From Plicaturopsis crispa FD-325 SS-3 (taxonomy: Eukaryota > Basidiomycota > Agaricomycetes > Amylocorticiales > Amylocorticiaceae), in the NCBI GenBank assembly GCA_000827205.1, contig KN832563.1, positions 44,907-108,906 on the forward strand: 64,000 nt of DNA, given 5' to 3'. This document shows, in pieces, positions 42,769-63,985 of the stretch. The translations under genes and the position numbers were made by a program. Numbering within the stretch: the first letter of the stretch is position 1; the number at the start of each line of letters is the position of its first letter. The notes under the pieces were generated by a model. The model made no database searches. It had not been told where the DNA came from and worked only from the letters and a program-made list of their open reading frames with translations.

Positions 42769-43579
42769 ACTTCACATCAAAAGGAGTTTGGTGTCCCCAA
42801 ATTTTGCAGTCCTATATGTAAGGAGCCATATACGGGCCACGAAGACTCGGACCATCAAACAGGGAACAAAGAGGTGACTATAGTGACTAGTCACGGTGGC
42901 GCTGGTCTGGTGATGTCAGAACATGGATTGCCGTTTGAAGGTTAGCTTTTTACTTACTTGTCTTCACCCGGTACAGATCCTGGATACGTGGAAGAGCTTT
43001 GATAGAGTAGATAGCCGATAAAGCAATGAACACCGAGCACACCTAAGCGCCAACAGGCACAATGGCCCCGGTCGCACCGTACATGACGCACAGAACAGAA
43101 AAGCGTTCTATCCCACACAAGAAGGATTCACCGCCAGCTAGTTCCCTACCTGACACGAGCACGGCAAGAGTGTCGCAGTGACCACATGTGTCCGGGGTGG
43201 GTCATGCGCGGCGGTGAAGTCTTGCGCGCAAGAAAAACTCAGAGATGCTCGGGAAATAAAAGCCGTCATGAGGGAGAATAACTTTAGGCTCGCGTACAGC
43301 ACCTCCCTGAATCCAGCAGAGTCAGACACTCTCGACACCCTCTCGCAAGCCCCGTGACATCAAGCTATATGCAAAACGATCCCAAAACAGGCACAACGAG
43401 AGAGAACGCTGCACCGATATTGAGGCCGTAGATGCAAACTTGAGTAGCGGGGGTGGCACCGGGCGGAGGATCCGACGGCCAGTGATACAAAGACATAGAG
43501 CGAGTGCGACGGGCATCGCACATGGAAAGCGGGAAGGGCATCGCGCATGGCGAGTGCGGACAGACGCACAGGTGCACGC
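42769..43579. other. Intergenic, transition into the hairpin-repeat region
   Basis: Promoter side of MYND copy 2. No gene motif. Purine-rich sequence on the + strand starts here and continues through the repeat region. Confidence 0.45.
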
Positions 43580-44353
43580 CACCCGCTACACCACTTCCGG
43601 AGCGAGGAAAAGATCGGGCCTACCGAGGCACACGGACTGCACGCATTGCTCACGATAGTGTGGCTGGATATGGGCAGCGGGGAGTGTGTGCGAGTGCGTT
43701 CCAGTGGGTGCGTATGCGAGAAACGAGGAAGGTGTGTTGCACCATTGAACATAGAGCCACTGGCACGCCACTTTGTGCAGATCCCACGGACACGTATTCT
43801 GCGACGAACGACCTTAGAATGGGCGCAGCGTTAAAACACGCTGTGTCGATTCCGGGGCCGTGAACAAAAGCGTGGACGCGGGGCAGGCGCGGGTGGCGCG
43901 GAGAGGCTCGAGTAGAAAAACGATGGATACAAGACTGATGCAAGCACGGCAGCCACACCATCGTCTGCAGAACCACCCGCTGCACCAGCGAGAAGGGACA
44001 AGAGTATATCGGGGCCATCGTAGCAGTGCACAGATGTGGCCCGATCGCGTGTGGCCCGGAGGTATGCTAGACAGCGGGAGAGTATGGCTGTGTGAGCTGG
44101 GGGCCCCGATGAGTGAGATTGAACATATCTATCGTGAGCGTGGAGCACACATCCATCGTGGATCGCACACTGCTGGCCGTCGCATGCAACACCTGGAGCT
44201 GGCGAATTGGACGCCTGAAAACGAGACCAGTGGCGTTGTACAGAGCACTGCATAGACTTTACAGATGATGTCGTCTGATCGTGTAGAGCGAGGAGATGTG
44301 GATGTGGATGATTGAACATATCGAGGACGCACCAGTGAGACAGGAATCATCGA

Positions 44354-44385
44354 GCACCACCACCACCACCGCCACCACCACTGTG
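44354..44385 (+). repeat. CAC trinucleotide microsatellite
   Basis: Run of CACCACCACC with one CGC interruption. Confidence 0.85.
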
Positions 44386-45171
44386 GCCATCGTCCGCATT
44401 CCACGACCATCGGCGCAGCGATTCCTCGCGATCTTGTGCGGCTAGACAAATGCGAGCAGCGTCGGTGTAGCGATGGGGTTTGGAGGGCAAGGAGCAACTA
44501 GATACGAACGAGATCAATAGCGACCATGAACGTTGAGTTGACGCTGAAGGAGGCTATGTTGTGGCACTTTCAAAAATTCGGGCGTTGAGTGGAATTAGAG
44601 GGCGTTGGCAAACATGCCCAAATAACCGCTCGCGATTTCAGTCGAGTCTCTTTCCAATTTCGTCAGACCGTGCACTGAACTTCTGCTTGAGTCCGAGCGT
44701 GCTAGGGCTCACGCGAAAGAGACGATATACATGCACAGGAAATCATATATTGTATATCGTACTGCGGCGACACACGACACCCTAAGACGCACTCCGCTCC
44801 CACCTTCGCCATCCGTCCGAGCTCGTAGATGCTTCACCATATGTCGCGGCGCACAATCAATAGCATATGCTATCGAAAGGCAGGAGAATCGAACAGGGCG
44901 CAGAGAAGCAAGCTGCCATTCCGCTATGAAAGTCTACAGAACGATGAGTCAGTGATGAATATGCGACGAGTGAGCGCTTAATACGCACAAGTTGGAGTTG
45001 GTACAGTCTATGCCATCGTCGTAGTTCAAGAGAGGAGCGAGTGCGTGATAGAGTGCTTCCCGGCTCCCCGTCATCGGTCGTTCTCCGAGGGCAGACAACG
45101 CAGGCGGCTATGACGAGAGAAAGCAGACGTAGCTGGAACTCTGAGACGAGACGGTCATCACTTCGAACGAG

Positions 45172-45236
45172 GCACTCATCCCTGCGAGCAAGGCACTCAT
45201 CCCCGCGAGCAAGGCACTCATCGCTGCGCACGGTGT
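45172..45236 (+). repeat. 21-bp minisatellite, three copies
   Basis: GCACTCATCC(C/G)(T/C)GCGAGCAAG repeated about three times; CGCTGCGCAC in the last copy resembles the hairpin-arm core. Confidence 0.8.
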
Positions 45237-45283
45237 GCTCACCAGTACCGAGTACAGTGTGTTCACCACGACCAAACACAGCA

Positions 45284-46850
45284 TACTCACCGCTACGGCG
45301 TCTGACGTCTTTGGTTACGGACGCAACCTCCAACGCGACTGGACACAGACGCGAGGACGGCGCGTGCGGATGCCATGACTGGGTCGCAGCGGTGAGATGC
45401 TAGGGCGCACGGAGTAGGCGAGGACGGATCATCATGACAGTGAAGACGAATCATCACGACAGCGAGGACGGATCATCATGACAGCGAGGAAAAATAAACG
45501 CTGGCACACGCAAACCACCTGCGACCTTTCCCACACCCGAAACAGATCGGGCAGCCACGTAGATACGCCTGCGCCCATTTGCACGCGATTTGTGTTGCAT
45601 CGCCGAAGGTGGGCCGCGGGGAGTGTGGACGGCGTGGCGGGTGATTATAGTAAAGTAGAGTAAAGCTGAATCAAGACGTGCCGGTGGCACAAAGATCGCG
45701 ACCCAACAGAAAAGGACGGAAAAGATGAACAGATAGAGCACACACCACCGCACACAGTGCATTCGCCGCCGCACACACCGTATTCACCGCTACGGCGTCT
45801 GACGTCTTCGGTTACGGACGCAACCTCCAACGCGACTGGACACAGACGCGAGGACGGCGCGTGCGGATGCCACGACTCGGTCGTAGCGGTGATCTTGTTG
45901 TGCGTGACAGTGCATGACGGGGTGCACGGAGTAGGCGAGGACGAATCATCATGACAGCGAGGAAAAATAAACGCTGGCACACGCAAACGCACAGCACCAC
46001 CTGCTGCAGTACTCCTAGAAATGGCCTTGAACAGATCGGGCAGCCACGTATATACGCCTGCGCCCAGTTGCACGCGATCTGTGCTGTTTCGCCGGAGGTG
46101 GGCAGCGGGGAGTGTGGACCGCGTCTCGGTGCGGGGCAAGGTGAGTAGAGTAGAGTAGAGTAGAGCTGAATCAAGACGTGCTAGTGGCACAAAGATCGCG
46201 AACCCACAGAAAAGGACGAAGAAGGTAAACAGATAGAGCACACACCACCGCACACAGTACATTCACCGCCGCACACACCGTATTCACCGCTACGGGTTCT
46301 GATGTCTTCGGTTACGGACGCAGCCTCCAACGCGACTGGACACAGACGCGGGGACGGCGCGTGCGGATGCCGTGACTCGGTCGTAGCGAAGATCTTGATG
46401 GTGTGCACGGGGAGGTGGGGGATCGTATCGTATCGTAGCATCGTGAGAGCGAGGACAGATAATCATGAGGACGAAGCGTAGGATCATGAGACGCCTGCGC
46501 CGAGTTGCACGCGATCTGTGCTGTTTCGCCGGAGGTGGGCCGCGGGGAGTGTGGACCGCGTCTCGGTGCGGGGCAAGGTGAGTAGAGTAGAGTAGAGTAG
46601 AGCTGAATCAAGACGTGCCGGTGGCACAAAGATCGCGAACCAACAGGAAGGGACGAAAAAGGTAAACAGATAGAGCACACACCACCGCACACACCGTATT
46701 CACCGCTACGGATTCTGATGTCTTCGGCTACGGACGCAACCTCCCACGCGACTGGACACAGACGCGGGGATGGCGCGTGCGGATGCCGTGACTCAGTCGT
46801 AGCGGAGATCTTGTTGTGCGTGACAGTGCAGAACGGGTAGGTGTGGAAGG
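45284..46850. repeat. About 0.5-kb tandem repeat, four copies
   Basis: The segment beginning TCACCGCTACGG(C/A/G)..TCTGA(C/T)GTCTT and continuing through the GACTGGACACAGACGCG stretch recurs at about 45284, 45781, 46281 and 46697, i.e. steps of about 497, 500 and 416 bp. Copies two and three also share a full hairpin or its right half (GGTGG(G)C(A/C)GCGGGGAGTGTGGAC). Local unequal crossover is the simple explanation. Confidence 0.8.
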
Positions 46851-47055
46851 ATCGTAGCGAGGACGAGCGCGAGCACGAGGAAAGCGAGCATGAATAATCG
46901 AGAAACGAGGAAAAGCAGACACACTCGCGCTAGCGCACGCACAGCACCACCCGCTGCCGTACTCCTGGAAATGGCCTTGAAACAGATCGGGCAACCGCGC
47001 AGAGATTGCGCGCAATTTATGTTGGTCTCGCCGGCGGGAGGCAGCGGGGAGAACG

Positions 47056-48652
47056 TGTACGTGAACGAGGAGAGATGTGGACAATTGAGATAGCAACCGG
47101 CGTCTGCGATTGCACGGCCCAGGTCGTTCCCGCTGCCTGGCTACGTCTGCGAGAAACGGCCACAGATCAAACGTATGCGCGGCAGGGCGCTGCGCCAATC
47201 CTGTATCCGTGTTCAAGGACATGGGCCATAGCAGCGGGGAAGGCGGGGTGGCGAGCTGAGACGCGGCGAGTGGTTTGGAACGATCGCATCATGGTAGCGA
47301 GAGCGGCCTGAGCTAAGATATGCCCACCGCTCCCCTTTTCCTTTCAATTACAGGATCGGCGCGATCGCAGCATTGATGGCGCGCGATCGTGTTTGTGAGG
47401 TGGAGGCGGGAGGGCTGCGGGGCAGAGAGGCGGCGATCACGACACTCGTACCACCCACTGCCAATCGTACCGCTTAACATAACGCATCGATGCTATCGGT
47501 GCAGTGGATGTCATGGCACCGATTTGAACCGATCGAATAGTGGGATGTCGTGCGGCGGGGGGTGTGAGCGTGCGAGCGACGATGCGAGTGGAGGGGAGGA
47601 GAGGCGGAGAGAGAAGCCTTGACTCAGCGCATCGTAGCTCACCGCCTGCGAAAGAGCGAGTCCTGATCGATGTCGTATGTGGCGGGTGGGCCGGGTAGGA
47701 CTGCGCGAGACCGGGTCAAGTTGGGTTCAAGTAGCCAGAGGGTGGACGCACAAAGACAGAGCGGGGCGGGGCTGCAGACGACGACGATATCGATGACGCC
47801 CCGACTTTCGCCCTGCTCGTCGTCGTCGTCGTCGATGGTGACGGTCATGTCTAGAAATATCCGAGTTCCGATCCGGTTGTCTCTTCACTTCCTCGCACGA
47901 CGATGTCTCTCGTCTACTGTGTGTCTGTTAACGGCCAAATACAATGGATTTCAGACTGTCCGCGTGAAAGGCTCGGGATTGATTAATTCGAAGGAAACGG
48001 TGTGTATGTGTATGTGCACGAATGCAGTACTCTATGTATCTACGAGCATCATCCGGTCAGTGTACACGCTACTGTAACAGATCATTTCACTGTACCAGCC
48101 CGAATTTTTGTCGCCATACCGCCTGCACGAGTATACGAGTGAAGACTCGGAAACATATTTTGTCTCTACTCGAGGCAACGGAGGCCCCTTCGACGCGTCG
48201 TGCAGCATGCGGCACTACACCTGCGGCAATCCTGGTAAGCACCAGGCGATAGGAAACGTGGCGCACGTCGTCGTGCAGCCAAGAAAAGGAATAACTTTTG
48301 AAAGAGAGAAGGTGCGGGGCTGCGCCAGCGTACGAGGTGTGGTGCGGCGCCAACGCGATCTCAAGTGGGAGAGTCAAACGAGGGCGATGCGTGCGTGCGT
48401 GCTGGGTGTCTATACACTTGTAGGATGTATATGTTGATGAGAAGGAATGGATGCGAGAGGATCGAGGTGGCAGAGGCGATAAGAGGGAGGTGGTGGAGAT
48501 GACGCGAAAGAGGGAGACAGAGACTGAAACGAGCGAGAGGGAGGATGCGAAAGAGGGAGACATAGACTCGAATCAGAGAGAAGGATGCAGACACGCTAAG
48601 AACGACGGAAGAGACGATACGAAAAACACAGCATCGTACACACCCAGAACGG
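47056..48652. other. Spacer inside the hairpin cluster, no gene seen
   Basis: Contains a possible degenerate hairpin (CCCGCTGCCTGG at about 47133 with AGCAGCGGGGA at about 47230), a CGT microsatellite at about 47813-47835 and otherwise unremarkable sequence. Confidence 0.4.
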
Positions 48653-48706
48653 CACCCGCTGCATGAGTTCGAACGCTTCTGCAAGGTCGGGGTCGTCGCA
48701 GAGGCA

Positions 48707-48778
48707 TCAGGGACACCGCTACGTCGACCATCAGGGATGCCGCTACGTCGACCATCAGGGAGGCCGCTACGGCGACTG
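48707..48778 (+). repeat. 24-bp minisatellite inside a hairpin unit, three copies
   Basis: CATCAGGGA(C/T/G).CCGCTACG(T/G)CGAC three times. It lengthens the apex of the 48653-48820 hairpin. Confidence 0.85.
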
Positions 48779-49167
48779 GGCCCGATCTTGTGCGAGCCGA
48801 GTGCGTGCAGCGGGGAGTGCGAGCGATGTACAGATGCATGTAGGCGCGGGGAGCTATGAATGGTATGGACAGACAGACCGCCATAATATTCATATCCTCG
48901 AGATAAAACATGATGCATATCAGGCAGCACAGACTCATGCACCCACACCACAGCACCCGCGATAGATCCACACTTTCAGAGATTAGGGGCAATTGCAGCG
49001 AAAAAACTGCGAACGTGCCTCCCGGTCTGTGAAGCCGGCATGCAGCGGGAAGGTGTGCAAGTGTGCGGGAAGCTGTGCAGCGTGTGCGAGTGCGCAAGAT
49101 GATGCGAGGGAAACGATGCGAGAATGGAGAGGGCGGAGACACACTGGCATGCACCCACACACCACAG

Positions 49168-49270
49168 CACCCGCTGGCTCATCAGTGATTTCACAGAGAT
49201 CGGGAGCGCCCGCAGCAGCAATACTGCGAACATTCCTCCCGATCTGGGAAGCCGACGTGCAGCGGGAAGG
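49168..49270 (+). repeat. Hairpin unit with a perfect 10-bp inner stem
   Basis: Outer arms CACCCGCTGG (49168) and GCAGCGGG (49259-49266). Inner stem AGATCGGGAG (49197-49206) pairs perfectly with CTCCCGATCT (49236-49245). Apex about 29 nt. Confidence 0.8.
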
Positions 49271-49391
49271 CGTGCAGGTACGCAGAGGTGCACGAGAATC
49301 GGAAGTAGTGCCGCATATGGGGCCGGAAACAAGATTCAATATCATGACGCGAGGATAAAGACGGACATACTGGCATGCGCCTACACCACAG

Positions 49392-49492
49392 CACCCGCTG
49401 TTAGCGAAAGTCCTGGGAGATTGGGGGCAATCGCCGAGAACACAGCGAACGTTCCCCCGATCTCGGAGGCGAGGCGGGCAGCGGGGACGTGT
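49392..49492 (+). repeat. Hairpin unit with an 11-bp inner stem
   Basis: Inner stem GAGATTGGGGG (49417-49427) pairs with CCCCCGATCTC (49454-49464) with one G-T pair; outer arms CACCCGCTG and GCAGCGGGG. Confidence 0.8.
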
Positions 49493-50057
49493 GTAGGGGA
49501 GTCGGAAGCGGAGCCCCGGGCACGATACAGTGTCGCTATGAGAGAAAGAACAGGACGAGAACGCACGGTCACTGCTTACACTGCTCGCTGCACAGCTGCA
49601 AACCAATATCACAAGGTCGGGGACACCGCGGCAGAGAGACTGCAGCGCATGTACGGGATCTTGGATGCAGCCGTGTGCAGCGGGGAGTGTGCGCGTGTAC
49701 AGTGCAAGGGGAGTGGCTGGTGAGAGGAACAACTGGCAAGTAAGCAGCGAACGAAACGACTCGCTCGTTCACTCGCAAGACGACTGTTAACTAGAAGAAC
49801 GACGTACACTTACACTTACACATACACACGCGCCCAACCTCCACCGCCCCTGCTTGGTGGTGTGTTCGCACAACTTGATGGTGGGCACCGCAGCCCACAA
49901 GGTGCGGCGCCGGCGCGATCAAGTGGGGCGTCAAGCGGGGGCGGTGGTGTTTGCGTGCGAGGCGTCTATGCAAGGATAAGGCCATATGCGATAATAGGAA
50001 GTAGACAGAGATTGAGCGAACGAAGTAGACAGAGCTCGAGAGAAAGAAGTAGCATAG

Positions 50058-50152
50058 CGCATACCATGGACGTATACACACATACCATGGACGTATACAC
50101 GCGTACCATGGATGTACACACGCATACCAAGGACGTACACACGCGTACCGAG
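50058..50152 (+). repeat. 21-bp minisatellite, about 4.5 copies
   Basis: ACCATGGACGTATACACACAT-like units directly before the hairpin unit at 50158. Confidence 0.9.
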
Positions 50153-50310
50153 GCCGCGACCCGCTGAGGTGGAGACCTGCCACGTATCAAGATAGCTGCA
50201 ACGGTCTCCGAGTTATGGAGACCGCTCCAGCTGGACCCGATCTCGGGACAGCAGAGTGCGTGCAGCGGGGAGTGCGTTTGGTGTGCGTGCGAGATCGACA
50301 TCTAGCGGAA

Positions 50311-50394
50311 GAGACCGACATCTACAGGTGCGAGACCGACATCTACAGGTGCGAGACCGACATCTACAGGTGCGAGACCGACATCTACAGGAAA
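50311..50394 (+). repeat. 21-bp minisatellite, four copies
   Basis: GACCGACATCTACAGGTGCGA repeated almost perfectly, directly after the right arm of the hairpin unit 50158-50277. Confidence 0.92.
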
Positions 50395-50886
50395 AGCTCG
50401 ACGTCTGAGCGAAAAAAAAAGTAGCATAGAGCATACACCGCGCACCCAAAACGCCACCCGCTGCACAATGACCACCATTTTTACAAAATCAGGATAGCCG
50501 TAGCAGCCTCAAAGAGACCGCTCTAGCTAGACCCGATGTTGGGACAGCGGAGTGCGTGCAGCGGGGGGCGACGTGAAAGGAGTGCGATGGCCAGTTGGCA
50601 ACGAGATCGGACGAGGGTGGGTAGAAAGGTGCAGGCTCGTGCGGGGAGAAAGATATAGCGAGGAGTCAAAATATCCTCACGACACAGACACAAGCGCTGT
50701 CACGACGCTGACAAAAGCGTGATACATCACCACCCGCTGTTCCGCCAGAACGATTTGACGACAAACGCCGACGGCGAGAGTAAGATGCACGGTAGGAAAC
50801 AGCCACGCCGCGCACGAAGGAAACGCCCCGTAGGGCACAAAGGAAGCACCACGCCACGCGCAAGACGAGAGACCGGTCAACGCCAC

Positions 50887-50996
50887 CACCCGCTGCCGAT
50901 TCCCTCTTGGGGTTTAAAGATCGGGGCCCTCGACACACAGACTGTGCCGATCGCACACGATCTTGTACCTAGCGAGTATGCGGCAGCGGGAAGTGC
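50887..50996 (+). repeat. Hairpin unit with a perfect 10-bp outer stem
   Basis: CCCGCTGCCG (50889-50898) pairs exactly with CGGCAGCGGG (50981-50990); inner AAGATCG / CGATCTT also pair. Confidence 0.82.
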
Positions 50997-51837
50997 GAGA
51001 TCCAAGTCAGCGTAGGCGAACGCGCGATGGGACATGCAGAACCAGTGGTACGAGGCACAGGACGTGCGCATCAGTCCAAAGCAACACGGGCTACACGGAT
51101 TTTTGGCCAGCGTGACAAGATCGGCGCACCTACGACACCGCCCGCTTGGCAATCACAGCTGATCATGATCAGGATTATCGACACAGAAAAACCGTGCCGA
51201 TCGCACGCGATCCTGAGGCCATGAAGGTTTGCGCAACGGGGAGTGCGTCGGTCGAGGTGGACACTGTAATTCGAAACCCTTGAAACCATCGCCCACTCAC
51301 CCCAGACTCAGACACTTCCCGCATGCACAAATGATCTGACAGGGCAAAGACCGGGGGCGCTTGACACAGGATCACGGACGCTGAGCGGCGCCGCCCGGTA
51401 TTGGATCGCGTGAGCGTGCGCAGCGGGGAGGTGACGAGGCGGGTGCCACGGGTGGGTGACAAGGAGAGTGCTGAGGACTCGCCGATGCCCGTGGAGATCT
51501 GTGCATCGATGACGACGATGACGGTGGTGGACAGGGTGTAGGTGGCAGACGGTGGGCATTAATATTGCAGCAGAAAAAAGGCAGAGCGAAAGGAACGACA
51601 CAGACGGCGACGACGACGAGATCGATGGCGAGGTGAGTCCGAATTCCGATCCGGCCATCCCTCACCGCCACTCTTCGCGTCTTTGTCGTCGACGTCCACC
51701 ATCGCTGGCTCGTCGACGTGCCATGCCTTGCTCTTGGAGCTCCTACCTAGCGCGTTGTCCAGCTGCTGCTCTTTCCCTTGCTTTCATACCGTGCCTCTAC
51801 CTTTCGGAATCGCGCTCAGATCACACCCTCGTCGCGC

Positions 51838-51950
51838 ACATACCCCGCTGCACCGAGCGAGATCGGGTGCATCCACAGCAGGATACCATATCTGCGCTTC
51901 CATGGGTGCCCCCGATGTTCGTCTACACCACCGGTGCAGCGGGAGAGACG
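51838..51950 (-). repeat. Inverted-orientation hairpin unit with a perfect 12-bp outer stem
   Basis: CCCGCTGCACCG (51844-51855) pairs exactly with CGGTGCAGCGGG (51932-51943); inner GATCGGG and CCCGAT also face each other. It belongs to the block where the pyrimidine-rich strand is the + strand. Confidence 0.82.
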
Positions 51951-52045
51951 GGTCGCTGTTCTGTACGTGCGCCTCCATCTTTTTCTTCACTTTGTTTCGA
52001 TCAAATGTCGTCCTTCGCCCTCGTCCTACGCGTCCTGCAACCCAT

Positions 52046-52166
52046 CCCGCTGCCACATGCAGGGTCCCTCACGCTCGGGGCCACGCGAAGCATTGTAGCA
52101 GTGTACTGATGTTCGATGCGCGCGATCTCCGATTTTTCTGCATCCGCACCTTGGCAGCGGGTGGAA
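52046..52166 (-). repeat. Hairpin unit with a perfect 10-bp outer stem, arm variant CCA/TGG
   Basis: CCCGCTGCCA (52046-52055) pairs exactly with TGGCAGCGGG (52152-52161). The CCA/TGG extension differs from other units yet is matched in both arms. Confidence 0.8.
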
Positions 52167-52647
52167 TGTGCACGGCGGCGAGTGGAATGTGCGCGATGGC
52201 GGGTGGCCTGTGCGCGCGACGTCCGTCTCTTCTCATCTCCGTCTAAGTATGTGCTCGCCCTGCCGCATCTCGCAGCCTTTCCCGCTGGTCTACCTACTGC
52301 TTCCACGATCGGGAATTAGACAGTGACGGTTTCTCTGCTGCTGTAATCCCCGATCTGATGCACACCCGAGAAATACTAGCGGGTAGTGCTCGAGAGTGTA
52401 GAGCGGCTATATGTGACGCAGTGACGCATGTCTCTTTTTGTCCCTGCTTTCGTTTGTCTTTCACGCCATAATCGACGCCCATCCTCGCAATCGTCACTCA
52501 GACATCTCCACCCGCTGTGACACATCCCGCCACGATCGGGCGTACGCGCCGAGAGCTGTCTTTCCCGATCGCTATCTTCCTCCACCCTCCCTTCTGTCTT
52601 CCTTCACCCACACACTCGTACACACATTCCCCCATCTGCGCGTAACA

Positions 52648-52718
52648 CACCCCGCTGCAGCATTCGGACACATCCCGCTGCAGCATTCGGACACATCCCG
52701 CCGCACCACTCGGACACA
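52648..52718 (+). repeat. 24-bp minisatellite built from hairpin left arms, three copies
   Basis: CACATCCCGCTGCAGCATTCGGA-like units in tandem; only one right arm (GCAGCGGGTAGTGC, 52787) follows. Confidence 0.85.
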
Positions 52719-54235
52719 TCAAATCGGTCGCGCTCAGCACTTAGTCTAGTGTTACTGCGATCCCCGATCTGTATGGTAGTCAGATAGCAGCGGGTAGTGC
52801 GGTTGCGATTGTGGTGTGTGTGCAGTTCTCTCGGTTCTTCTCTCTTTTTTCTGTCTCTTTGCTTTTGCTGTCCACCTTGTTTCTCCATTTCGTGCATGTC
52901 GTCCACTTCTCGTCTGTCGCTAACGCACACTCCACTCCCGCTGGCCCGCCTCGCCACACGATCGGGCGCCCTCGACGCGATGCCTTGTCATTGCTGCGGT
53001 CCCCGATCTGTGTGCGTGGAAAATACGCTAGCGGGTATGTTTTTGCGTCGCGAACGCGGTGCATGTCTCCTTCTACTTTTACCGTCTTACTTGCTTGATC
53101 GCGCGTTGCATACCGCGAGGGGCGATACCTCTCCGTTGCTACAGTCCCCCATCTACGTACTTACAGCGTGTCCCTGTCATAGAGCTAGCACGTCGTCCGT
53201 CTCCCCTGCCTATTCCTTCTCCGCTCTCCTCGTCCTCTGCCCTCACCACCCTGACCCCTTCCCGCTGCACATACATCCTGTAATCATAGATGTAGAGGTT
53301 CGGCGCAGTCCCTCTGCTGCGGAGACTCTCACGTTTGTTGTATATAGTGTTGTGAAGCGGGTGGAGGTGCGGGTGGAGGTCCACAGTGGGTGCGGTGACC
53401 GTGATGGAGCTGTGCCTCGTCCTTCACATTTCCTCGTCTGGTTTCGGTGCACACACGCATGAGGTCTCTGATTCTTGCTTCTTGCTGGGACGCGCGCACG
53501 CACGGCCTGTCTTTTTGCTTCCTACATTCTGCCAACATCACCCTTGCATGTCGCACTTGTCTCGCCCGCTCGCTTATCGGATTTGCCACAGTTTCCCTGT
53601 TTATACCGTCTCAATGTACGCACATTAATGATTGTAGTTGTTATTCGTATATCGGTAATGGTATGAATGAAGTACACGGAATACAAGAGAGACGACAGAG
53701 CAGCGCGAGAACGCCTAGACACGAAAACAAACTTGAGTAGCACACAAATCGTGCGGCAGAGTTGACGGTGCGCAATGGGAGCCGGCAGCAAAGAGAGACC
53801 ATCTGCGAGGTCAGTAAGCCCACGGTCGGTACCAATACGCAAGACACGAATTGACGGGCAACGGAAGAGGACGAAGTGTTGTGTGAGCGCGAACGTGTGC
53901 AGTGCAAGGACACGTTGACACGGAGGATAAACGACACCGCCAGCGCCGCGCATGCAGAGCACCGCCCGCTGCACAAGCATGCAGGGATCACCTGCAGGTC
54001 TGGGCCGTCGACGCAGGAACGCTGCACCTCCAATACCGGATCTTGTGGTGACACGGCGTGCGCAGCGGGGAGGGCTAGAGGAGTAAACGAGGAGGTGGCT
54101 GGATGCAAAAAAAAACAAAGCAAGTGGACATAAAAGACAAAGGCCAGAAAGAGACGACATATAGCACACACAACGCTTGCCGCTGTAGCCATCTCGACAG
54201 GAGCGTGGAGGCCCCATGCGCACTAGCCGACGGCG

Positions 54236-54380
54236 GGGATAGTTCACGTCGACTCCTTGGATAGCTCACGTCGACACCAAGGATAGTTCACATCGACTCC
54301 TTGGATAGCTCACGTCGACTCCTTGGACAGTTCACGTCGACTCCGAGGATGGTTCACGTCCACTCCGAGACTGGTTCATG
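54236..54380 (+). repeat. 22-bp minisatellite, about seven copies
   Basis: GGATAGTTCACGTCGACTCC-like units with point differences. Confidence 0.9.
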
Positions 54381-54394
54381 CCGACTCAACACAG

Positions 54395-54592
54395 CAGCGT
54401 CGCGCACGCCTAGCACCGTCCAGCGTCGCTTACGCCTAGCACCTAGCATCGCCCAGCGTCGCTTACGCCTAGCACCTAGCACCGCCAGCGTCGCGCACGC
54501 CTACCACCGCCCAGCGTCGCTTACGCATAACACCGCCCAGCGTCGCTTACGCATAACACCGCCCAGCGTCGCTTACGCCTAGCACCGCCCGC
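54395..54592 (+). repeat. 26-33 bp minisatellite, seven copies, merging into a hairpin arm
   Basis: AGCGTCGCTTACGCCTAGCA units ending CCGCCC. The last one runs directly into CACCGCCCGCTGC, the left arm of the hairpin 54583-54694, as if the array grew from hairpin-arm sequence. Confidence 0.88.
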
Positions 54593-55375
54593 TGCACAAG
54601 GTACAGTGGAACACCTGCAGGTCTGGGCCGTCGACACAGGAATGCGGCGCCTACAGTTCCCGACCGTGTGGAGCATGGTCTCGCGCAGCGGGGAGGACTG
54701 GCGGTACGTAGCGGGGAGGGCGGGCGGTACACCAGGTATGCGCAATTTGGCGTGCGAGCGGGGGCAGTGGGAAATCTGTGTGTGCTCCAGCGCGTGTTCG
54801 CTGGAAGGAGGAGAGGCAAAGAGGTGAGTATTGGGTGTGGGGAGCGAGAAGAAAAGCAGAACGCGCGGCAAGGACCGTCAACGGTAGGCCATAATGTAGC
54901 GGCAAGCTTGCAACCACCCGCTGGCAACCAGCAAAACCTGGCCAAAGATCACGATCGTCGACGCAGCCTGAGACGCACACTACGCCAAGGACACGCGATC
55001 TTGGGTCTTGGGATGCGTAGCGGGGCGTGTGCTTGGCTGTCGTCGAGGCATGGGTGGGGAGTAGGCGGGGCGTACGTGAAGTGCGCGCGTCAGGCACGAC
55101 AACGGAGACGAGAGAGCAAGCAGGGACGATAAACAGTTAGACCGGACTCGGACTCGTAAACGCAAGTACGAGACTTGTGGAAGCAAGTACGCCCGAGCGC
55201 AGCACACAGCACACAGCACACATCCCGCTACAAGGCAACGGAAGTAAAAAATCGTAGTCAACGCAGAAAGACCTTTCGCGGTCGACGTGCGATTTTTGGC
55301 CGGGGCGTCGATTTGCAGCGGGGAGTGCGTTGGGTGGGTGGGTGGGTGGCTACAAGCTATGAGACACCCTGCAAT

Positions 55376-55450
55376 GCGAGGGCGACACGAAAGAAAGAGC
55401 GAGGGCGACACAAAAGAAAGAGCGAGGGCGACGCGAGAGAAAGAGAGAAG
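55376..55450 (+). repeat. 25-bp minisatellite, three copies
   Basis: GCGAGGGCGACACGAAAGAAA-like units between the hairpins at 55221 and 55473. Confidence 0.88.
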
Positions 55451-55472
55451 GCCACGGACACGGCACACAGCA

Positions 55473-55590
55473 CAAATCCCGCTGAACCATCATGATTTTG
55501 ACATAAAATCGCGGTCGACGCAGAAAGAGACCTTTCGCGGACGACGTGCGATTTATGGCCGAACCGGGTGCGTTCAGCGGGGAGGGGTGT
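55473..55590 (+). repeat. Hairpin unit with a perfect 10-bp outer stem, arm variant AAC/GTT
   Basis: CCCGCTGAAC (55478-55487) pairs exactly with GTTCAGCGGG (55572-55581). Here the usual GC/GC next to the core is replaced on both sides. Inner AAAATCGC faces GCGATTTA. Confidence 0.82.
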
Positions 55591-56212
55591 GGGTGGGTGC
55601 GACGAGATGCGATAGGTAGATGGGACAAATGCACTAGTAGTAGAAGACAGGACAATGTGCGAGACACGGGGCATCGAGAATACCTCCCGGTGTGTATGAT
55701 AGGTCGATGTGCAAGCGCGTAGAGCGAGCGACGTGACGAACGGAATGGAACACTCAACAGTACTAGTATGCCTTGCAGCGTAGAATAGCTCACCGCTGTA
55801 CTCGGACATGCCAGACCCCGCCGATGATCGCAATCCCAAGGGAGGAGCGTCACCAGCGCGATCGATTACGCAGGCAGCGGGCGCAGCGGTGGTGGAGTGG
55901 GCGCAGTGGGTCGCAGGAAGAGCGGAGACACGCAGGAATAGCGGATGGGAGGGACGGATGCTGGTGCACATGAGCATGAAGACAGTAGGCCGCTATGATG
56001 AAGCTATTGGAGATGGATACAGATCACGGCATGTCAGCTGAGGGGCAGCGGCGATGCCGGGCGATGTAGATCACCAGCGCAGGTCGTACATAGCGGCGAG
56101 GTCGTCTTGGGTGCGTGCAGCGATGGACGACGATGACGACAACGAAAGGTCAAACGACGAAGAGATCGACATCAGGAAAAAACTAGGAAGCACTGTAGCG
56201 GAATGTAGTCGC
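55591..56212. other. Intergenic, no gene seen
   Basis: Right edge of the hairpin cluster to the TA-flanked element. A second ACATCAGGAAA, matching the end of that element, occurs near 56169. Confidence 0.45.
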
Positions 56213-56214
56213 TA

Positions 56215-58018
56215 CATCAGGAAACCTTTAGTCGTCTGAACTGATCTGAACGCGCTGAAAGCACTGAAATCGACTGAAAGTTGGCAATAATTCTGACCGC
56301 TGCTCAAATTTGCGTGTTCAGAATGCGTTCAGAGGCTCAGAATGTACACTTTGAAGTCAGATTTTTGTTGCAAAGATTTCGAAGATTATTCCAAGGTCAT
56401 TCAGTGAGGCAGACAGTCAGACCCGAGTCAGACCGCACTCAAACTCTGAGCCGCGACTTGCACACACGAAAAAGCTAGAATTGCATATTCATAGTGAAAC
56501 TAGTACATACACCTCGAAATATCTGGCGCTCGCAAACGTACACCCAGGCTCACCTGGGCGAGAACATTCGATTATCTGAGCTACACACTGGGCATACAAA
56601 TTGGTCAATACCGACGCACACTCATGCACTACAGAGCGGCGGCTCACAGCTTTCTCATCCCCGGGCCCATGCGCGTCTTGTGCACATTTGTACTTGTCTT
56701 CGGGGGCAAAGGCCCCCCGCGCTGTAGTTCACGCGCTGCGAAACTTGCAGGCGGGCTTGCGCGCCCCCGGGAAATTGTCGTAGCGTAGGTCTTGTGTGAT
56801 TGGAAGACAGGTGTGGTGATAAGCAGATAAGAAAGGGCAGCGTAGACATAATCTCCTTGGTTGAAGGCTGGTTGAAGGCGAGGCGGCAAGTGGGCGAGAG
56901 GAGCAGCGTGCAGGGTGCAACGTTCAACGACGTTGGCACGGACGTTGCACAGACGAGTTGCAAACGTGGCTAAGTAATATTCAAGCTCCGCTTGAACTAC
57001 ATTTTGCCACGTATGTATCCTTGTAAGTGTCCGTCGTTTTCACGGCCAACTTCGACGTTGAGAGAGCAGAACATTGAACGATTTCACTACTCTTTCTCGC
57101 CGCCCCCCTGCATGGATGTCCGGGTCCCTGTCGCCGTCCAACAATCCCATTTTGTCTTCGTCCGGTCTATGGTTCGGCGTCTGCTTTCAAGGAGCATACA
57201 CCTGGCACCTGCACTCGCCTGTGTCCCCGGAGGTGTCGCACGCACTACTGCCTCGATAGGACTCTGGGTAAGCTGCACGGGAGGTGCGGCTCAGCTATAA
57301 TGTATGTTTACAGCCTTTTATCCACGGACGACCGAACTAAATTTCATTCCTTGCTTCTGTCGTTGCATAGGCCATCTACCCCGATCATCGTGTTCATGCA
57401 AACTACAAGGGTGGATGACAGGAATCTCGCAAGCCCTGATCGCGTCGCGTCGCCGCTGCACTTGAGGTCTCACAGATCCGGTACGCTATGAAGTCCTCGT
57501 GTATCCAGTATAGTAGTGCTAACCTACGAACAGTTACATGTACCGTTAGCTGCTTGGCTATGGGGAGTGGAGAGCTAATAGAATGAGTGAGGACAAGGAC
57601 ACCGGTGAGCCCTACGAGAACCGCGATGGGTACATGCTGACAGCAGAGAGATTAGCCAAGGGCTGTCTTCGGGAGTGCGATACTAATTCCATGCTCGCCC
57701 GTAGTCCGCACGTAGTCACACATGTTTTGTATTAGCCTACATTGAATATACATTCTTCATGCTGTACTGCCGATGTCTGAGCTCAGATTTATGGATCTGA
57801 ATTCCGTCTAAAGCTGTCTGAATCCCAGTATGAAAGCAGTCTGAATTAGGTCTCTGAACTACCTCTGAGAGGATAATTGTCTGATTTCGGTCTGAAGAAT
57901 AGTCTGGCAGCATCTGAAGTCAGAAGGGGACCTACTGAACTCAGACACCGATCTGACCGTCTGACCGTCTGAAATCAGGGGTTTCAGACCGTTTCAGACG
58001 GATTGACTTTTCCTGATG
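56215..58018. mobile_element. 1.8-kb TIR element flanked by TA, no transposase seen
   Basis: Left end CATCAGGAAACCTTTAGTC and right end ending TTTTCCTGATG are imperfect inverted repeats, each next to a TA dinucleotide (56213-56214 and 58019-58020), as made by Tc1/mariner-like transposases. Subterminal regions are packed with CTGAA/TCAGA words on both sides (56240-56290 and 57770-58005). Open frames inside are short and without DDE motifs, so it would be non-autonomous. The TA duplication is too short to prove insertion by itself. Confidence 0.6.
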
Positions 58019-58020
58019 TA

Positions 58021-58398
58021 TGGCTGGTGTAGCGTTTTTGCTTACCCCCCTGTTTGTAGTCATTTATAGCTGCGCCTACGCAAGCTGTAGCACAATATAG
58101 CTCAGTAGCCTCGTAGTGGGATAGACATCTGTAGTCGTTATACACAATATAGCTGTCACCAGATTTTGAATGCGCACGAAATACTGCGGCTTCAGGATCA
58201 CACAACATAGAACATAGAACCCAATGATATTGCAAACTACATAAGTACATGCAACACAAGTATTACGGTGCTGCACGAGCTAGACAGGACCTGAGCGACG
58301 GGCGCGACGAGGCTATGGTGTCGTCACTAGACTCGGGAATGCAAAGGCACGAGTGGCCCGGACATCTACCGGAGGGTGCAGACAGAGTGGTGCGTACA
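58021..58398. other. Short spacer between two mobile elements
   Basis: No gene or repeat recognised. Confidence 0.5.
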
Positions 58399-58597
58399 TG
58401 GGGAAATGCCTAAGTCGAGCTTGCGAGACGGAAAGGCATTTCGAGGACTACTTAAGTCGTATCCGTAGAGAAGGATGAATCGACCGCTGTGTCGGCGTCG
58501 CAGACGCAGAGACGAAAGTGGGCGATTCAGGAATCGTTTTTCCCACCGTTCCTCTCTTTCCGCCACTTTTTCCTCCGCGCTGTTCAGCGCATTTTCA
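58399..58597 (+). repeat. 199-bp direct repeat, 5' copy (A1)
   Basis: Starts TGGGGAAATGCCTAAGTCG; same sequence at 63787-63985 by eye. Probably holds the promoter of the element. Confidence 0.93.
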
Positions 58598-58653
58598 TTC
58601 GCTCTCATCAATCACTAGCTCGATTGTCTCGATCTTTCAACAGCTCGCGTCCA

Positions 58654-60003
58654 ATGACGGGTCTCACAGGTCCTGGCGGTGTAAACACTGCCGATGACGG
58701 CACGATCAATGGCGAAAAGTCGTATCAAGCCGACGACCTTAGCCTTGCCGCGCGAAAATGGCGGAATCAGCTACGTATTTCTCGTCGTTTGGCTGAGGAT
58801 TCAGAGGTGGATGTCTCGGAGGACGAGGATGAACGGGAGGAAAGGCAGCCGATGACGCCGCCTCCGCAAGAGTTCTCTATGGAGGAACTCGAAGCGCGCT
58901 TTAATGAGTTATCGCCTTCAAAGAAGGCTTTGATTAATCAATTTGCGGTTCCACTCGCAAAAAAGAAAGCGAGCGAGCTACTCCTTGACCCACAGTCTGA
59001 CGGACTGTTGTCGGGAAAGTTGGCGGTGGAGGCCGCTGAGTTGTCGTCGAAAATTCGGCCTCAGCGATTTGTCTTTATGGAAGAGATGGAGACGGGTGTC
59101 GCGTCGTACGGAGAGCAGTGCGCTATCAGCGACGAGATCTACCTGCTGGTGGAGAAACGGATTTTCACGCCGTTGACTCTGTTCACTAATTCTGCTCTTC
59201 GGTACCTTGGCGAGAATGCCATGTCCATGAAGAAGAAGACGATGACGATGTCGGGGAAAGCGGATCTCATTGATCCCAACTTCTTTGGGCCAGAGGAAGA
59301 CCTCACCGTCGTGCTTTTTCTCGAAGCCTGGAAGAACTACCGTGTTTTTCTCCACGTCGTGTGCATGGAGCCGGTCCTCACTCGCTGGCTCGCTCACGGC
59401 GATGCCATGGCAGGCATTCCAGACCTCGAACGGAACTTCAAGGCTGTCGCACGCCACGACAGGGAGCAGCGCGTTTCTTATCATACGCAGCCGTTCAAAT
59501 TCGACGAGCTAATCTATTGGCGTCGTTTTGACCAGATAAAGGCCGAGGTTGAGCACGAGAAGACTCGCTCGGACTTCGAGGCGTACATGCGCTCCACACT
59601 TTCGACTACGCCGCTCAGTCGCGAGCGCAAGCAATCAGCTCCCGCGCGTTATCAACCGTACTCGGCGGACGCAGACACACGGCGGGTAGACACCGCCAAA
59701 AAGCCCTTTCGCGAAGGCAGGCCCGCGTTACCGCCCGGCGGCACCTGCCTCATCTGCGGCTCGGCGGGACACATCGCGCGTGACTGCATCGCGAAAACCG
59801 GACCGAGAGGGCGCCCAGTCTTCGCAAAGTGGGACAACGGTCGGCGGATGCTCACAGCCGTCAAAGGAGACGACGACTTTTGCGTCTTCTTCAACCTCAA
59901 GGGACCCGACGGCTGCCGCGGAGACCACCCTCCTCGAGCACGACACGCGTGCTCACTCTGTGGCGGTAACCATCACGCCACCAGCGGTTCGTGCTACGCA
60001 TGA
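58654..60003 (+). CDS. Gag-like nucleocapsid protein of the retrotransposon
   Basis: I start at ATG 58654 (MTGLTGPGG), the first Met outside the 199-bp repeat; the frame itself opens earlier at about 58489. About 449 residues: an acidic N-terminal region (DVSEDEDEREE), a helical capsid-like middle (MEELEARFNELSPSKKALIN, FLEAWKNYRVFLHVVCMEPVLTRWL) and a CCHC zinc knuckle C-LI-C-GSAG-H-IARD-C near the end, followed by a second Cys/His cluster (CSLCGGNHHATSGSC). It should coat element RNA in cytoplasmic particles. The stop at 60001-60003 overlaps the start region of the pol frame, which is in the +1 frame relative to gag. Confidence 0.85.
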   Translation: MTGLTGPGGVNTADDGTINGEKSYQADDLSLAARKWRNQLRISRRLAEDSEVDVSEDEDEREERQPMTPPPQEFSMEELEARFNELSPSKKALINQFAVPLAKKKASELLLDPQSDGLLSGKLAVEAAELSSKIRPQRFVFMEEMETGVASYGEQCAISDEIYLLVEKRIFTPLTLFTNSALRYLGENAMSMKKKTMTMSGKADLIDPNFFGPEEDLTVVLFLEAWKNYRVFLHVVCMEPVLTRWLAHGDAMAGIPDLERNFKAVARHDREQRVSYHTQPFKFDELIYWRRFDQIKAEVEHEKTRSDFEAYMRSTLSTTPLSRERKQSAPARYQPYSADADTRRVDTAKKPFREGRPALPPGGTCLICGSAGHIARDCIAKTGPRGRPVFAKWDNGRRMLTAVKGDDDFCVFFNLKGPDGCRGDHPPRARHACSLCGGNHHATSGSCYA

Positions 60004-62028
60004 TTCTCTTTTTGCCAGTCCTTTTTGCAGCATTGATCTTCCCTTTGATACATCACATCTTGGTCCCAGAATCATTCCATCGGTTTCCCTACTTGATCGT
60101 GTTACCACTCCTTATGATTATCGCGCATTTGACTTGTATCTTCGCTGTCTTGGTCTTCAGAACCGGTACCCAAACCTTGCGAATAATATTAAAAACGGCT
60201 TTCACATTGGTGTCCCCAATTCACTTCTTGCTGATTACATTCTCCCTCCTCATATCCCTTCCGAGCACGACGATTTTCTTGACCAGTACCTACATGACGA
60301 GAAGGCCGCACTCCGCATGGACGGACCGTTTACAAAGGAGGAGATGACGGAGATAGTAGGAGGAAAGTTTGCGGCGTGTCCGCTGAAGGTGGCAGTGACG
60401 GACGGGGGCCCAGGGCAGCCGCAGAAGAGGCGTGCCTGTCGAAACCTCTCGTGGGCGGGCGACGCGGGGTACGCGGTCAACGACCTCATCAATTCGGATG
60501 ATTACCCCACACGGTGGGGAACCGCAGCCAAGGTCGCAGATGTGGTGAGTACTCGCATTCTCGATGGATGTTTTTCTCTGTTCGCGGCGTTGTTTTGCTG
60601 GTGTTGTACGGTCTGTCCCTTATGCTCAGGGCATGGCGCGGCCGCGTCCTTTTCTCGACGGTGTGCCTGTTTTTGTGTGTGTCGAGCTGTTTTTTTTTGG
60701 ATCATGTTCGTGTTTTGCCAGTGCGCGGCAGGTGTTTCGGTGCCGCACTGGTGGTATATTGTTTCTGAATGAACAGAGCTCATGCGAGCGTTTCTTTTCT
60801 TCTGGATGTGCAGATAGCGTCAGCGGTTCCAGGGACGCAGGCTGCGACACTTGACATTGTCAAGGCATATCGCACGACACCCATCCATCCAGACGACAAG
60901 AAGTTCCTTGTCGTCGCGCATCGCCGCGATCAGTTCTGGTTAGACCACAACGGGCCCTTCGGGCTGGCGTCGATGGGCGGCCTGCAAGGCGAAATTGCCG
61001 ACGCCGTCGTTGACATATGGGACGAGCTCAAAGTCAATCCGGCTTTCAAATGGGTTGACGATGTCGCTATGCTGCGATACCCTAGCCGTATTTCGTTCGA
61101 CGAGCAAGGCACGCCATTGTACGAGTATGCATACAACCGCGGCGGTGTCATTCATCTCATCGCTGCGCTCGGTGTTCCATGGCATCCCGACAAGGGCCAG
61201 GAATTCGGATTCATTTTTGTTTATGTCGGTTTCTTATGGAACATCCCCGCTCGATCAGTCGCGCTAACGGAATCGAAACGTCTTCGCCTGCAGGAGAAGG
61301 TTGCGCACTTCATCCAGCACTACGAACGCGCCAAGGTCTCGCTGCTGGAGGTGCTCAGCCTCAACGGGTCGCTCTCGCATGCGACTTTCGTGTATCCCCA
61401 TGGTCGGGCATATCTCGCAGCAATCTGCTCGTTCATCGCCGACTTCCAGAAGTCAGGATCTGCCTTCGTCGGGTCTAGATACCCGAAGCGCTCCCTCATT
61501 TCAGAGCTTCGCTGGTGGGCCGCCGTACTCCAGGAACCAACAGTTCGCATCCTCCGTCCGCGTCGCCCGTGTGTCGACGTTGGGATCTGGGTCGACGCTT
61601 CAACAGACTGGGGCGTCGGTCTCGTATGGAACGGCAACCGTTCTGCAGCGTGGAAATGGGTTAGCGGGTGGAACAACAGCCCTGGCTGTGACATCGGGTG
61701 GGGCGAAGCCATCGCCGCTGAGCTCGCGGTTATCACGGTCGAGCTCGCAGGTGTCCGAGACGCGGATATCCTCATTCGCAGTGATAATCAGGGCGTCATA
61801 GGCGCATTCATGAAGGGCCGTAGCCGCAATTTCATGGTCAACGAGTGCGTCCGCCGGGCGGACGTGATCGGCATGGCATGCAATATTGCCTTTCAATTTC
61901 AATATGTTACTTCTGAAGAGAACCTGGCTGACCCTGTTTCGCGCGGAATCACGGTCCCCTCCTTCTTACCAATCGACTTCGCAATTCCTTTGCCGGTCGC
62001 GATTTCATCCGTCCTAGACTATGTCTGA
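59780..62028 (+). CDS. Reverse transcriptase-RNase H of the retrotransposon, one intron
   Basis: Exons: open frame to 60544 and 60814-62028, separated by a 269-bp intron (GTGAGT..TGCAG) that joins TAAKVADV to IASAVPGTQAATLDIVKAY in frame. RT motifs: LDIVKAYRTTPIHP (motif A), GPFGLASMGGLQGE (motif B region) and FKWVDDVAML (catalytic VDD, motif C). RNase H follows: VGIWVDASTDWGVGLVW (first Asp), GEAIAAELAVITVEL (Glu), IRSDNQGVIGAF (Asp) and a final SEENLADPVSRG. No clear ATG opens the frame where it overlaps gag in the +1 frame (about 59780-60003); translation may use frameshifting or a further splice, and the exact start is unknown. The stop overlaps the ATG of the recombinase. Confidence 0.85.
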
Positions 62029-63391
62029 GACACCTGCTCGACGAACGCCCACTTTGGGCGTGTTCCATGGGGTGGCACCGGTGAGGGCCGCATCTGCCAG
62101 CGGTTCCTTGCTTATGCCTCTGCGCACCTCGGACGAACGAACGCGAAAACCCAGAAAACCAAAAATCGGCAACGACATTGTACCATCACCTTACCGACCC
62201 TTCGTCCTCGCTAGCGACCGACTTCGTGATTGGAACACCCCTTACTCTGCTTCTTTTATCTCGCAGGCTCGATCTTTCTTAGGTGGCCCTGCTTACGACC
62301 ACATGCGCGAGGTCGCACTTATTTCTTGTGAGCCGAAAACGCGGAGCGGTTACGGCGCAGGCCTTCTTCGATTCACACAGTACTGCGACGCCCTCCACAT
62401 CCCAGAGTCTGACCGCATGCCAGCGTCAGAGCTCTTGCTCGCCGGTTTCGCATCCAGCGCAGCCGCAAAAGTGAGCGGCGGTGCAGCAGACACTTGGCTC
62501 GCAGGTGTACACAAATGGCATGTTATCCATGCCGCACCGTGGTATGGCGGCGCTCTTCTCAGCGCCGTTCTTACTGGAGTTGAAAAATGCACGCCGGCGA
62601 CATCACGCAAGGAGCTACGGCCCCCAATCACATTCGAGCACATGCAGGCATTGTTCGCAGGACTGAATCTGAAGAATACGCGGGACGCCGCCGTGTGGGC
62701 GGTTGCTTCCGTCGCTTATTGGGCGTGCTGCAGGTGAGAGCGGGCTGTTTTCATTGCAGTCGTTCTTTTGTTCTCTGTGTTCTCGTTGGGCTGACAGTCG
62801 TGCTGCAGGCTCGGCGAGCTGGTCATCCCCAGTGCTAACGGGTTTGATCCTCGCACACATGTTTCTCGTGGCGCTGGCGTCAAATTCAGTCGCGCACACC
62901 ACGCCGTTGACTACGGTGTCTTTCACATCCCCTTCTCGAAAACACTGAAGGCTCGTGGTGCCGACATCACACTGACGGACATTCCCGATCCCACGTCACC
63001 CGTTGCGGCTATGCGGCATCATTTGATGGCCAACAAGAACGTGCCGGATGAAGCGCCGATGTTCGCATACGATACAGGCGATGGATGGGCGCCGATGACG
63101 AAGGGATGGTTCATGGCTCGGTGTAATGAGATCTGGGGAGAAGCGAAGCTGGATCCCATCGACGGCGGACATAGCTTCCGCATTGGCGGTGCAACGGAGC
63201 TCCTTCTTCGTGGGACGCCTCCCGACGTTGTCGCGCAACAAGGCCGCTGGATGTCGGATGCGTTCTTGCGGTACTGGCGAAAGATTGAAGTCATTCTGCC
63301 CATGTTCATCGCGCGTTCTTTTTATTCGTCTTCATCTGCTCGTGTTATTGATGCCATGGACGGTTTTGCGGCTCGCTACAACTTGAAGTGA
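62021..63391 (+). CDS. Tyrosine recombinase of the retrotransposon, one intron
   Basis: Exons 62021-62733 and 62809-63391 give 431 residues. The ATG overlaps the end of the RT gene by 8 bp in another frame. An N-terminal SAM-like helical region (SGYGAGLLRFTQYCDAL...ASELLLAGFASS...WLAGVHKWHV) precedes the catalytic domain: first Arg in CRLGELVIPS, H-x-x-R in GHSFRIGG (His codon 63170, Arg 63179), the GRW element in place of the second His, and nucleophile Tyr in FLRYWRK (63272). The 75-bp intron (GTGAGA..TGCAG) falls inside the codon of the first catalytic Arg, so unspliced RNA cannot make active enzyme. It should integrate circular cDNA without target duplication, as known for DIRS-order elements. 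Confidence 0.9.
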
Positions 63392-63786: not shown

Positions 63787-63985
63787 TGGGGAAATGCCTA
63801 AGTCGAGCTTGCGAGACGGAAAGGCATTTCGAGGACTACTTAAGTCGTATCCGTAGAGAAGGATGAATCGACCGCTGTGTCGGCGTCGCAGACGCAGAGA
63901 CGAAAGTGGGCGATTCAGGAATCGTTTTTCCCACCGTTCCTCTCTTTCCGCCACTTTTTCCTCCGCGCTGTTCAGCGCATTTTCA
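63787..63985 (+). repeat. 199-bp direct repeat, 3' copy (A2)
   Basis: Same as 58399-58597 by eye; flanks differ on both sides (AAGTAGT before, CCCACCCACC after). Confidence 0.93.

Follow-up and report, generated by a model that had tools for sequence, protein, structure and literature searches.

In Drosophila, clusters of hairpin RNA (hpRNA) genes such as hp-CG4068 and the hp-tHMG-cluster consist of related hairpins lying close together, have grown by tandem duplication and vary in copy number, with hp-CG4068 present in 20 tandem copies in D. melanogaster and in 9 in D. simulans (PMC10317233). These clusters produce Dcr-2-dependent 21-nucleotide (nt) small interfering RNAs, which have been sequenced and have named targets. 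Hairpin loci that yield small RNAs also exist in fungi (PMC9757828; PMC6145500), where well-supported examples are few (155 tier 1-2 loci in 16 fungi; PMC9757828). Here we describe a hairpin array from the basidiomycete Plicaturopsis crispa FD-325 SS-3, found in a 64,000-nt stretch of contig KN832563.1 (hereafter the window). The array spans positions 43000..56200 and comprises about 30 diverged copies of one hairpin within about 12 kb, separated by noncoding, strand-asymmetric spacers.

The array resembles the Drosophila clusters in its local grouping of related hairpins. In contrast to them, it is known from its sequence alone, its units are far more diverged, their 7-8-nt ends are nearly fixed, and it contains an inverted block. 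With a length of about 100 nt, the units fall within the 51-150 bp precursor definition used for fungal microRNA-like RNA (milRNA) hairpins, for example those of Coprinopsis cinerea (PMC6145500). The main text of a fungal milRNA survey contains neither the word "cluster" nor the word "tandem", and thus has no description of such an array under either term (PMC9757828). Among the titles and abstract openings listed by keyword searches of a collection of open-access papers, none described one in fungi.

We favour the view that the array is a noncoding cluster of hairpin RNA genes (hpRNA or milRNA-like precursors), which would have expanded in tandem and would be expressed from one strand in each block, and we give this a probability of roughly 0.4. 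It is the best of several explanations and is unproven. Its basis is the anatomy of the locus: the arms fit their own partners, covariation exceeds null expectations, 22-nt duplexes are available and coding signal is absent, while the spacers are weakly structured, hairpin polarity and strand bias flip together, and T-runs are tied to one strand and one side. In addition, clustered hairpin genes of varying copy number that feed Dicer are known, as are fungal hairpin small-RNA loci.

Units of the array

Polarity was scored as + where the purine-rich strand, CACC-CCCGCTGC...GCAGCGGG-GAGTG, is the + strand. CCCGCTG...CAGCGGG end pairs, counted with the ends 85-125 nt apart and one mismatch tolerated in one end, occurred 23 times in the 43.4-55.9 kb interval, compared to 0.20 on average, and never more than 1, in 200 dinucleotide shuffles. 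Elsewhere in the window, there was one such pair in bases 1-43,000 and none beyond 56.2 kb. A covariance model was built from an alignment of 19 units, which left out 45526, 48655, 48952 and the six units of the inverted block. It identified 28 units scoring at least 27 bits between 43.5 and 55.6 kb (19 from the training set and 9 held out), slightly more than the 25 or so reported in a preliminary description of this DNA, and its top match in the window outside the array reached 14.8 bits (E 0.09). Three weaker units, 49835, 47311 and 55779, fell below 27 bits. The 28 units are 92-116 bp long, apart from one of 160 bp, and the gaps separating them range from about 80 to about 1,450 bp. Unit ends were placed by hand from core motifs; the near-invariance of the ends is partly a result of ascertainment, because the units were both located through and delimited by these motifs. 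The features of the array, with covariance model scores, are as follows.

43582..43681, +, hairpin unit; 85.8 bits, training set
43976..44078, +, hairpin unit; 61.7 bits, training set
45526..45620, +, hairpin unit with degenerate left end, duplicate of 46000; 42.2 bits, held out
46000..46109, +, hairpin unit; 69.3 bits, training set
46482..46558, +, possible truncated unit (right half) within a segmental duplication; 10.8 bits, E 0.72, weak
46950..47048, +, hairpin unit; 56.8 bits, training set
47129..47238, +, hairpin unit; 45.5 bits, training set
47311..47433, +, degenerate unit; 19.7 bits, E 0.007, held out
47454..47559, +, hairpin unit; 60.2 bits, training set
48655..48814, +, hairpin unit of 160 bp, enlarged by an internal 24-bp tandem repeat; 69.1 bits, held out
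48952..49049, +, hairpin unit with degenerate left end; 32.7 bits, held out
49170..49266, +, hairpin unit; 62.3 bits, training set
49394..49485, +, hairpin unit; 57.5 bits, training set
49584..49684, +, hairpin unit; 86.9 bits, training set
49835..49953, +, divergent unit; 23.7 bits, E 0.00085, held out
50160..50269, +, hairpin unit; 72.6 bits, training set
50457..50565, +, hairpin unit; 82.3 bits, training set
50889..50990, +, hairpin unit; 89.6 bits, training set
51142..51240, +, hairpin unit; 87.1 bits, training set
51318..51427, +, hairpin unit; 68.8 bits, training set
51640..53660, -, inverted block; reversed in the polarity of its hairpins and in the purine bias of its spacers
51844..51943, -, inverted hairpin unit; 29.7 bits on - vs 16.2 on +, held out
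52046..52161, -, inverted hairpin unit; 28.3 bits on - vs 16.0 on +, held out
52281..52383, -, inverted hairpin unit; 40.9 bits on - vs 11.9 on +, held out
52697..52794, -, inverted hairpin unit, one end enlarged by 23-bp repeats at 52645-52720; 27.1 bits on - vs 19.7 on +, held out
52937..53035, -, inverted hairpin unit; 40.3 bits on -, no + match listed, held out
53261..53361, -, inverted hairpin unit; 43.3 bits on - vs 15.3 on +, held out
53965..54069, +, hairpin unit; 94.0 bits, training set
54588..54692, +, hairpin unit; 86.6 bits, training set
54917..55024, +, hairpin unit; 75.2 bits, training set
55224..55322, +, hairpin unit; 81.5 bits, training set
55478..55581, +, hairpin unit; 77.6 bits, training set
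55779..55906, +, possible degenerate unit; 16.5 bits, E 0.04, weak

Unit 45526 was excluded from the tests on 27 units (fold z, pairing counts, own and foreign arms, arm asymmetry, wobble and flank energy, target-site duplications, perfect tracts and 22-nt duplexes) and included in those on T-runs, RNA polymerase III (Pol III) boxes, flank 7-mers and sister-pair structure retention. Both 45526 and 48952 were excluded from the flank polarity test (26 units). The permutation tests used neither the weak units 47311 and 55779, nor the fragment 46482, nor the half units near 50733 and 52511, and unit 49835 was used only for masking in the comparison of spacer and hairpin folding. A search of viral contigs with the end pattern gave no matches.

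Folding and covariation of the arms

In the fold predicted for most units, the near-fixed outer stem (7-8 bp) leads into a variable one, beyond which lie the inner AGATCG/CGATCT pairing and, at the apex, GCAG/CTGC. With 10-nt flanks included, a unit has approximately 34-57 Watson-Crick pairs. The structure was taken from single-unit folds, since the MAFFT alignment misaligns the inner stems in some rows. RNAalifold, applied to this alignment, returned just six outer pairs and a covariation term close to nil. The unit-specific arm extensions quoted in the preliminary description were found in the sequence at 50887, 51838, 52046, 52276 and 55473; at 52933 the G-T pair is present and the extension reads GGC/GCT.

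Cut at their own ends, the 27 units had a mean folding energy z of -3.15 on the + strand and -3.29 on the - strand, with 20 of them below -2 on the + strand, and the mean rose to -1.47 once the outer 8 nt were trimmed. In a blind 160-nt scan of folding energy, the array hairpins were not prominent. Their prominence was overstated in the preliminary description, being evident only in units cut at their own ends.

With the 8-nt ends left out, own arms folded together with a mean z of -1.69, compared to -0.28 for foreign arms (0 of 50,000 permutations), and the own right half ranked a median of 3 among 27 candidate partners for each left half. Of the cells of the named structure, 72.3% were paired in the 19-unit MAFFT alignment, which had been made without fitting to that structure, and sliding the partner by 1-3 columns lowered this to 30-48%. 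Values as high were reached in 500 shuffles 3 times for cells paired, 3 times for the covariation score and 7 times for cells changed on both sides. A tree-based null, with columns evolving independently along a FastTree tree, was exceeded by cells paired (2/400) and by the covariation score (7/400). This test is favoured by the fact that the structure was named partly from those very sequences, and most of the outer stem is uninformative about covariation because it is nearly invariant. The covariation of the arms is real but moderate: the initial claim is borne out by the own-arm fit and by two of three tree-null measures, and is tempered by the third, cells changed on both sides, which showed no clear excess (42/400).

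Arm asymmetry among sister units was mosaic, neither arm being consistently the conserved one. Own flanks paired slightly better than foreign flanks, at 0-15 nt (555 of 20,000 permutations) and at 15-35 nt (566 of 20,000), so the stem may extend past the unit. A 22-nt duplex with at most five unpaired bases per side was present in 22 of the 27 units on either strand, compared to 10.3 in shuffles of the pyrimidine-rich strand. With at most four unpaired bases, the numbers were 18 (pyrimidine-rich strand) and 14 (purine-rich strand), compared to 4.8 in shuffles. Small-RNA precursors, one of the possibilities raised at the outset, are the one that this anatomy favours.

Strand polarity, spacers and T-runs

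The fixed polarity attributed to the array in the preliminary description is refuted by the block at 51.64-53.66 kb. All six units lying at 51.84-53.36 kb, each held out of the covariance model, scored higher on the minus strand. In a flank test that used 24 positions only, five of the six block units were inverted and 19 of 20 main units kept the main orientation; for unit 52697..52794, the flank test by itself favours the + orientation, contrary to the covariance model. The purine fraction of the + strand in adjacent 60-nt windows drops from 0.72 to 0.32 at about 51.64 kb and rises from 0.43 to 0.72 at about 53.66 kb. Purines account for 60% of the spacers and 54% of the hairpins in the main array, and for 34% and 46%, respectively, in the block, while the mean outside the array is 0.497 (standard deviation 0.065; 200-nt windows). 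Since hairpin polarity and purine bias flip together, they point to a 2-kb inversion inside a locus with strand-biased spacers.

Local folding of both strands gave a paired probability of 0.79 for flanking DNA, with higher values for hairpins (0.89-0.94) and lower ones for spacers (0.65-0.75). Spacers that are strand-biased and less structured than flanking DNA would also suit a long noncoding scaffold RNA, in which the repeated hairpins and biased, weak linkers of one or a few transcripts bind a protein many times. The model for this is the XIST A-repeat, where structured repeats alternate with strand-biased (U-rich), less conserved linkers (PMC10870365); it differs from the present array in being mammalian and protein-binding and in having eight and a half repeats, compared to about 30 long stems with variable interiors here. 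The near-fixed outer ends likewise suggest a sequence-specific binder. However, the 34-57 Watson-Crick pairs per unit exceed the needs of a small protein-binding motif, the covariation of an unconserved interior fits a requirement for stem length better than one for a bound motif, and the inverted block would fall outside the same transcript. We regard a scaffold RNA as unlikely.

On the pyrimidine-rich strand, a T-run of at least four was present 25-70 nt beyond the hairpin in 13 of 28 units, compared to 2.9 at random spacer positions (0 of 5,000), and a run of at least five in 8 of 28, compared to 1.1 expected. In the neighbouring windows, runs of at least four followed two units at 1-25 nt and one unit at 70-115 nt. 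When related units were collapsed in two ways, 9/21 and 10/21 retained the signal, compared to about 2.2 (0 and 1 of 5,000, respectively). The signal is strong but not clean, because the 25-70 nt window was picked after the distances had been seen. The T-runs could act as terminators for the pyrimidine-rich strand; alternatively, as A-runs on the opposite strand, they could be promoter elements there. Pol III boxes were not evident (A box in 4/28 units vs 3.0 in shuffles, B box in 3/28 vs 0.9), and the conserved 7-mers of the flanks were mostly CA-, GA- and GTG-rich words. Isolated A-C and G-T counts on the + strand, 37 to 24 in the main array and 6 to 13 in the block, lean towards the pyrimidine-rich strand as sense. 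The energy asymmetry of G-U and A-C with flanks included favoured neither strand (p 0.22), the pyrimidine-rich strand being the better one in 16 of the 27 units. Wobble asymmetry was not used as a strand test because of this p value and because a strand mutation bias would confound it.

In a cluster of hairpin RNA genes, one strand of each block would be transcribed, and each hairpin would fold by itself, like a bead joined to the next by a linker of loose structure. The fixed CCCGCTGC/GCAGCGGG ends may mark the hairpins for recognition or processing, and the variable stem would be cut by a Dicer-like enzyme into small RNAs that differ in sequence from unit to unit. Such a cluster would provide a natural series of about 30 related precursors in one genome, in which arm choice, dicing and stem turnover would be open to small-RNA sequencing. 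More tentatively, it may represent a previously undescribed kind of fungal locus, with about 30 paralogous precursors, fixed recognition ends, fast-changing, compensating stems and one strand used per block. Such a locus would hold a diversifying stock of small RNAs, directed for instance at transposons or competing selfish genes, and would be a counterpart of the animal hpRNA clusters. The other functions first suggested, a chromatin anchor and a self-primed amplifying element, obtained no specific support.

Several observations weigh against small-RNA precursors. The strictest conservation lies in the outer ends, although it is exaggerated because the units were found through them, while in microRNA families the mature stretch is usually the conserved part. 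In the 500 shuffles, pairs changed on both sides (68 as high) and further pair types (78) were unremarkable. The lack of a clear excess of both-side changes over the tree-based null and the wobble energies favouring neither strand belong here as well. Retention of structure between sisters (12 pairs) was mixed, with a mean z of 1.17 over 24 non-independent tests that derives partly from the fixed ends. Rfam gave no matches at gathering scores. For putative targets, the rest of the window contained no 21-nt match with at most two mismatches and one with three.

CGA/TCG-rich foldbacks lie at 47771-47845 and 51603-51703, where strand composition changes; their mir-598-like scores are far below the gathering score and do not fall on units. 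Similarity between the surroundings of 47.8 and 51.6 kb was that of random pairs (144.1 vs a mean of 144.0).

Growth of the array and its surroundings

The clearest homologies join neighbours (within 45.3-47.05 kb and 48.9-49.5 kb, 53.9 with 54.6 kb, and 55.2 with 55.5 kb), and a few shorter ones connect units 1-2 kb apart. In the 53.9/54.6 kb and 55.2/55.5 kb pairs, homology ends 7-32 bp outside the hairpin. The neighbour homologies and the loss of spacer similarity fit growth mostly by local duplication, followed by divergence that, in the proposed cluster, would have been rapid in both stems and spacers. Many 20-26-bp minisatellites occur in the spacers between 45155 and 55452, with one inside a unit (48705) and several over unit ends, including those at 52157, 52645 and 54687.

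These tandem repeats and the mostly local duplicates would also be expected of a functionless palindromic satellite, in which hairpins formed during replication would lead to duplication nearby, and repeated recopying of one arm from its partner would keep the two matched in the absence of selection. Perfect tracts were slightly longer between own arms than between foreign arms (6.15 vs 5.69 nt; 595 of 20,000 permutations), and the absent wobble asymmetry is in line with such an origin. The stems, however, have scattered mismatches and bulges and short perfect tracts (4-10 nt) rather than long recent copies. The ends are nearly fixed while flanks and interiors diverge, which suggests constraint, and a symmetric palindrome would not predict strand-specific T-runs or spacer bias. 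A satellite is, in our estimate, somewhat unlikely; if it were one, the array would be a clear case of arms staying complementary without selection and would bear on how covariation evidence is read.

Short terminal inverted repeats, a variable interior and a length of about 100 bp recall fold-back elements or miniature inverted-repeat transposable elements (MITEs), of which a family might have inserted repeatedly at one hot spot. In contrast to such elements, the 27 units showed no target-site duplications above foreign-flank controls, the remaining approximately 51 kb of the window contained no convincing copies, and orientation is coherent within each block and coupled to spacer bias. Moreover, neighbour homology at 45.3-46.8 and 48.9-49.5 kb continues through the spacers. 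The array is therefore unlike ordinary MITE scatter, as had been claimed, and a transposon family is a very unlikely explanation.

Stop-free frames of up to 261 amino acids on the pyrimidine-rich strand could be taken as a sign that the repeats are coding sequences or pseudogenes with codons that are palindromic by chance, but this strand is expected to hold few stops anyway, and unit lengths are not kept to multiples of three. A period-3 signal above 4 was found in none of 40 array windows, compared to 24% of 165 outside. None of the 22 stop-to-stop open reading frames (ORFs) of at least 150 amino acids in the array had a Pfam match above the cut-off; 21 had no match at all, and one array ORF had a sub-threshold DUF3302 match (E 0.038; 14.6 bits vs a cut-off of 32). 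Coding repeats can accordingly be given next to no weight, and these 12 kb hold no recognisable genes, in agreement with the preliminary description.

ORFs of the window include those for a GATA zinc finger, a C2HC5 zinc finger, a PIF1-like helicase and DUF6570, together with a VWA-like match below the cut-off; with the retroelement described below, they suggest by their content a fungus, probably an agaricomycete. At 28728-36083, the DUF6570 ORF lies on the minus strand and the PIF1-helicase ORF on the plus strand; the two suggest Helitron remnants. Beside the array, at 56213-58020, there is an inverted repeat of 46 nt with 74% complementarity and a separation of 1.7 kb. A retroelement at 58394-63985 carries 204-bp direct repeats that are 99% identical and lie 5,388 bp apart. 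It also has a CCHC zinc-knuckle match below the cut-off and an ORF that matches tyrosine recombinases weakly (E 0.028), and is presumably a recent tyrosine-recombinase element of the DIRS/Ngaro type. Strong hairpins (z -5.1) are predicted at 63681-63920, over its right-hand repeat.

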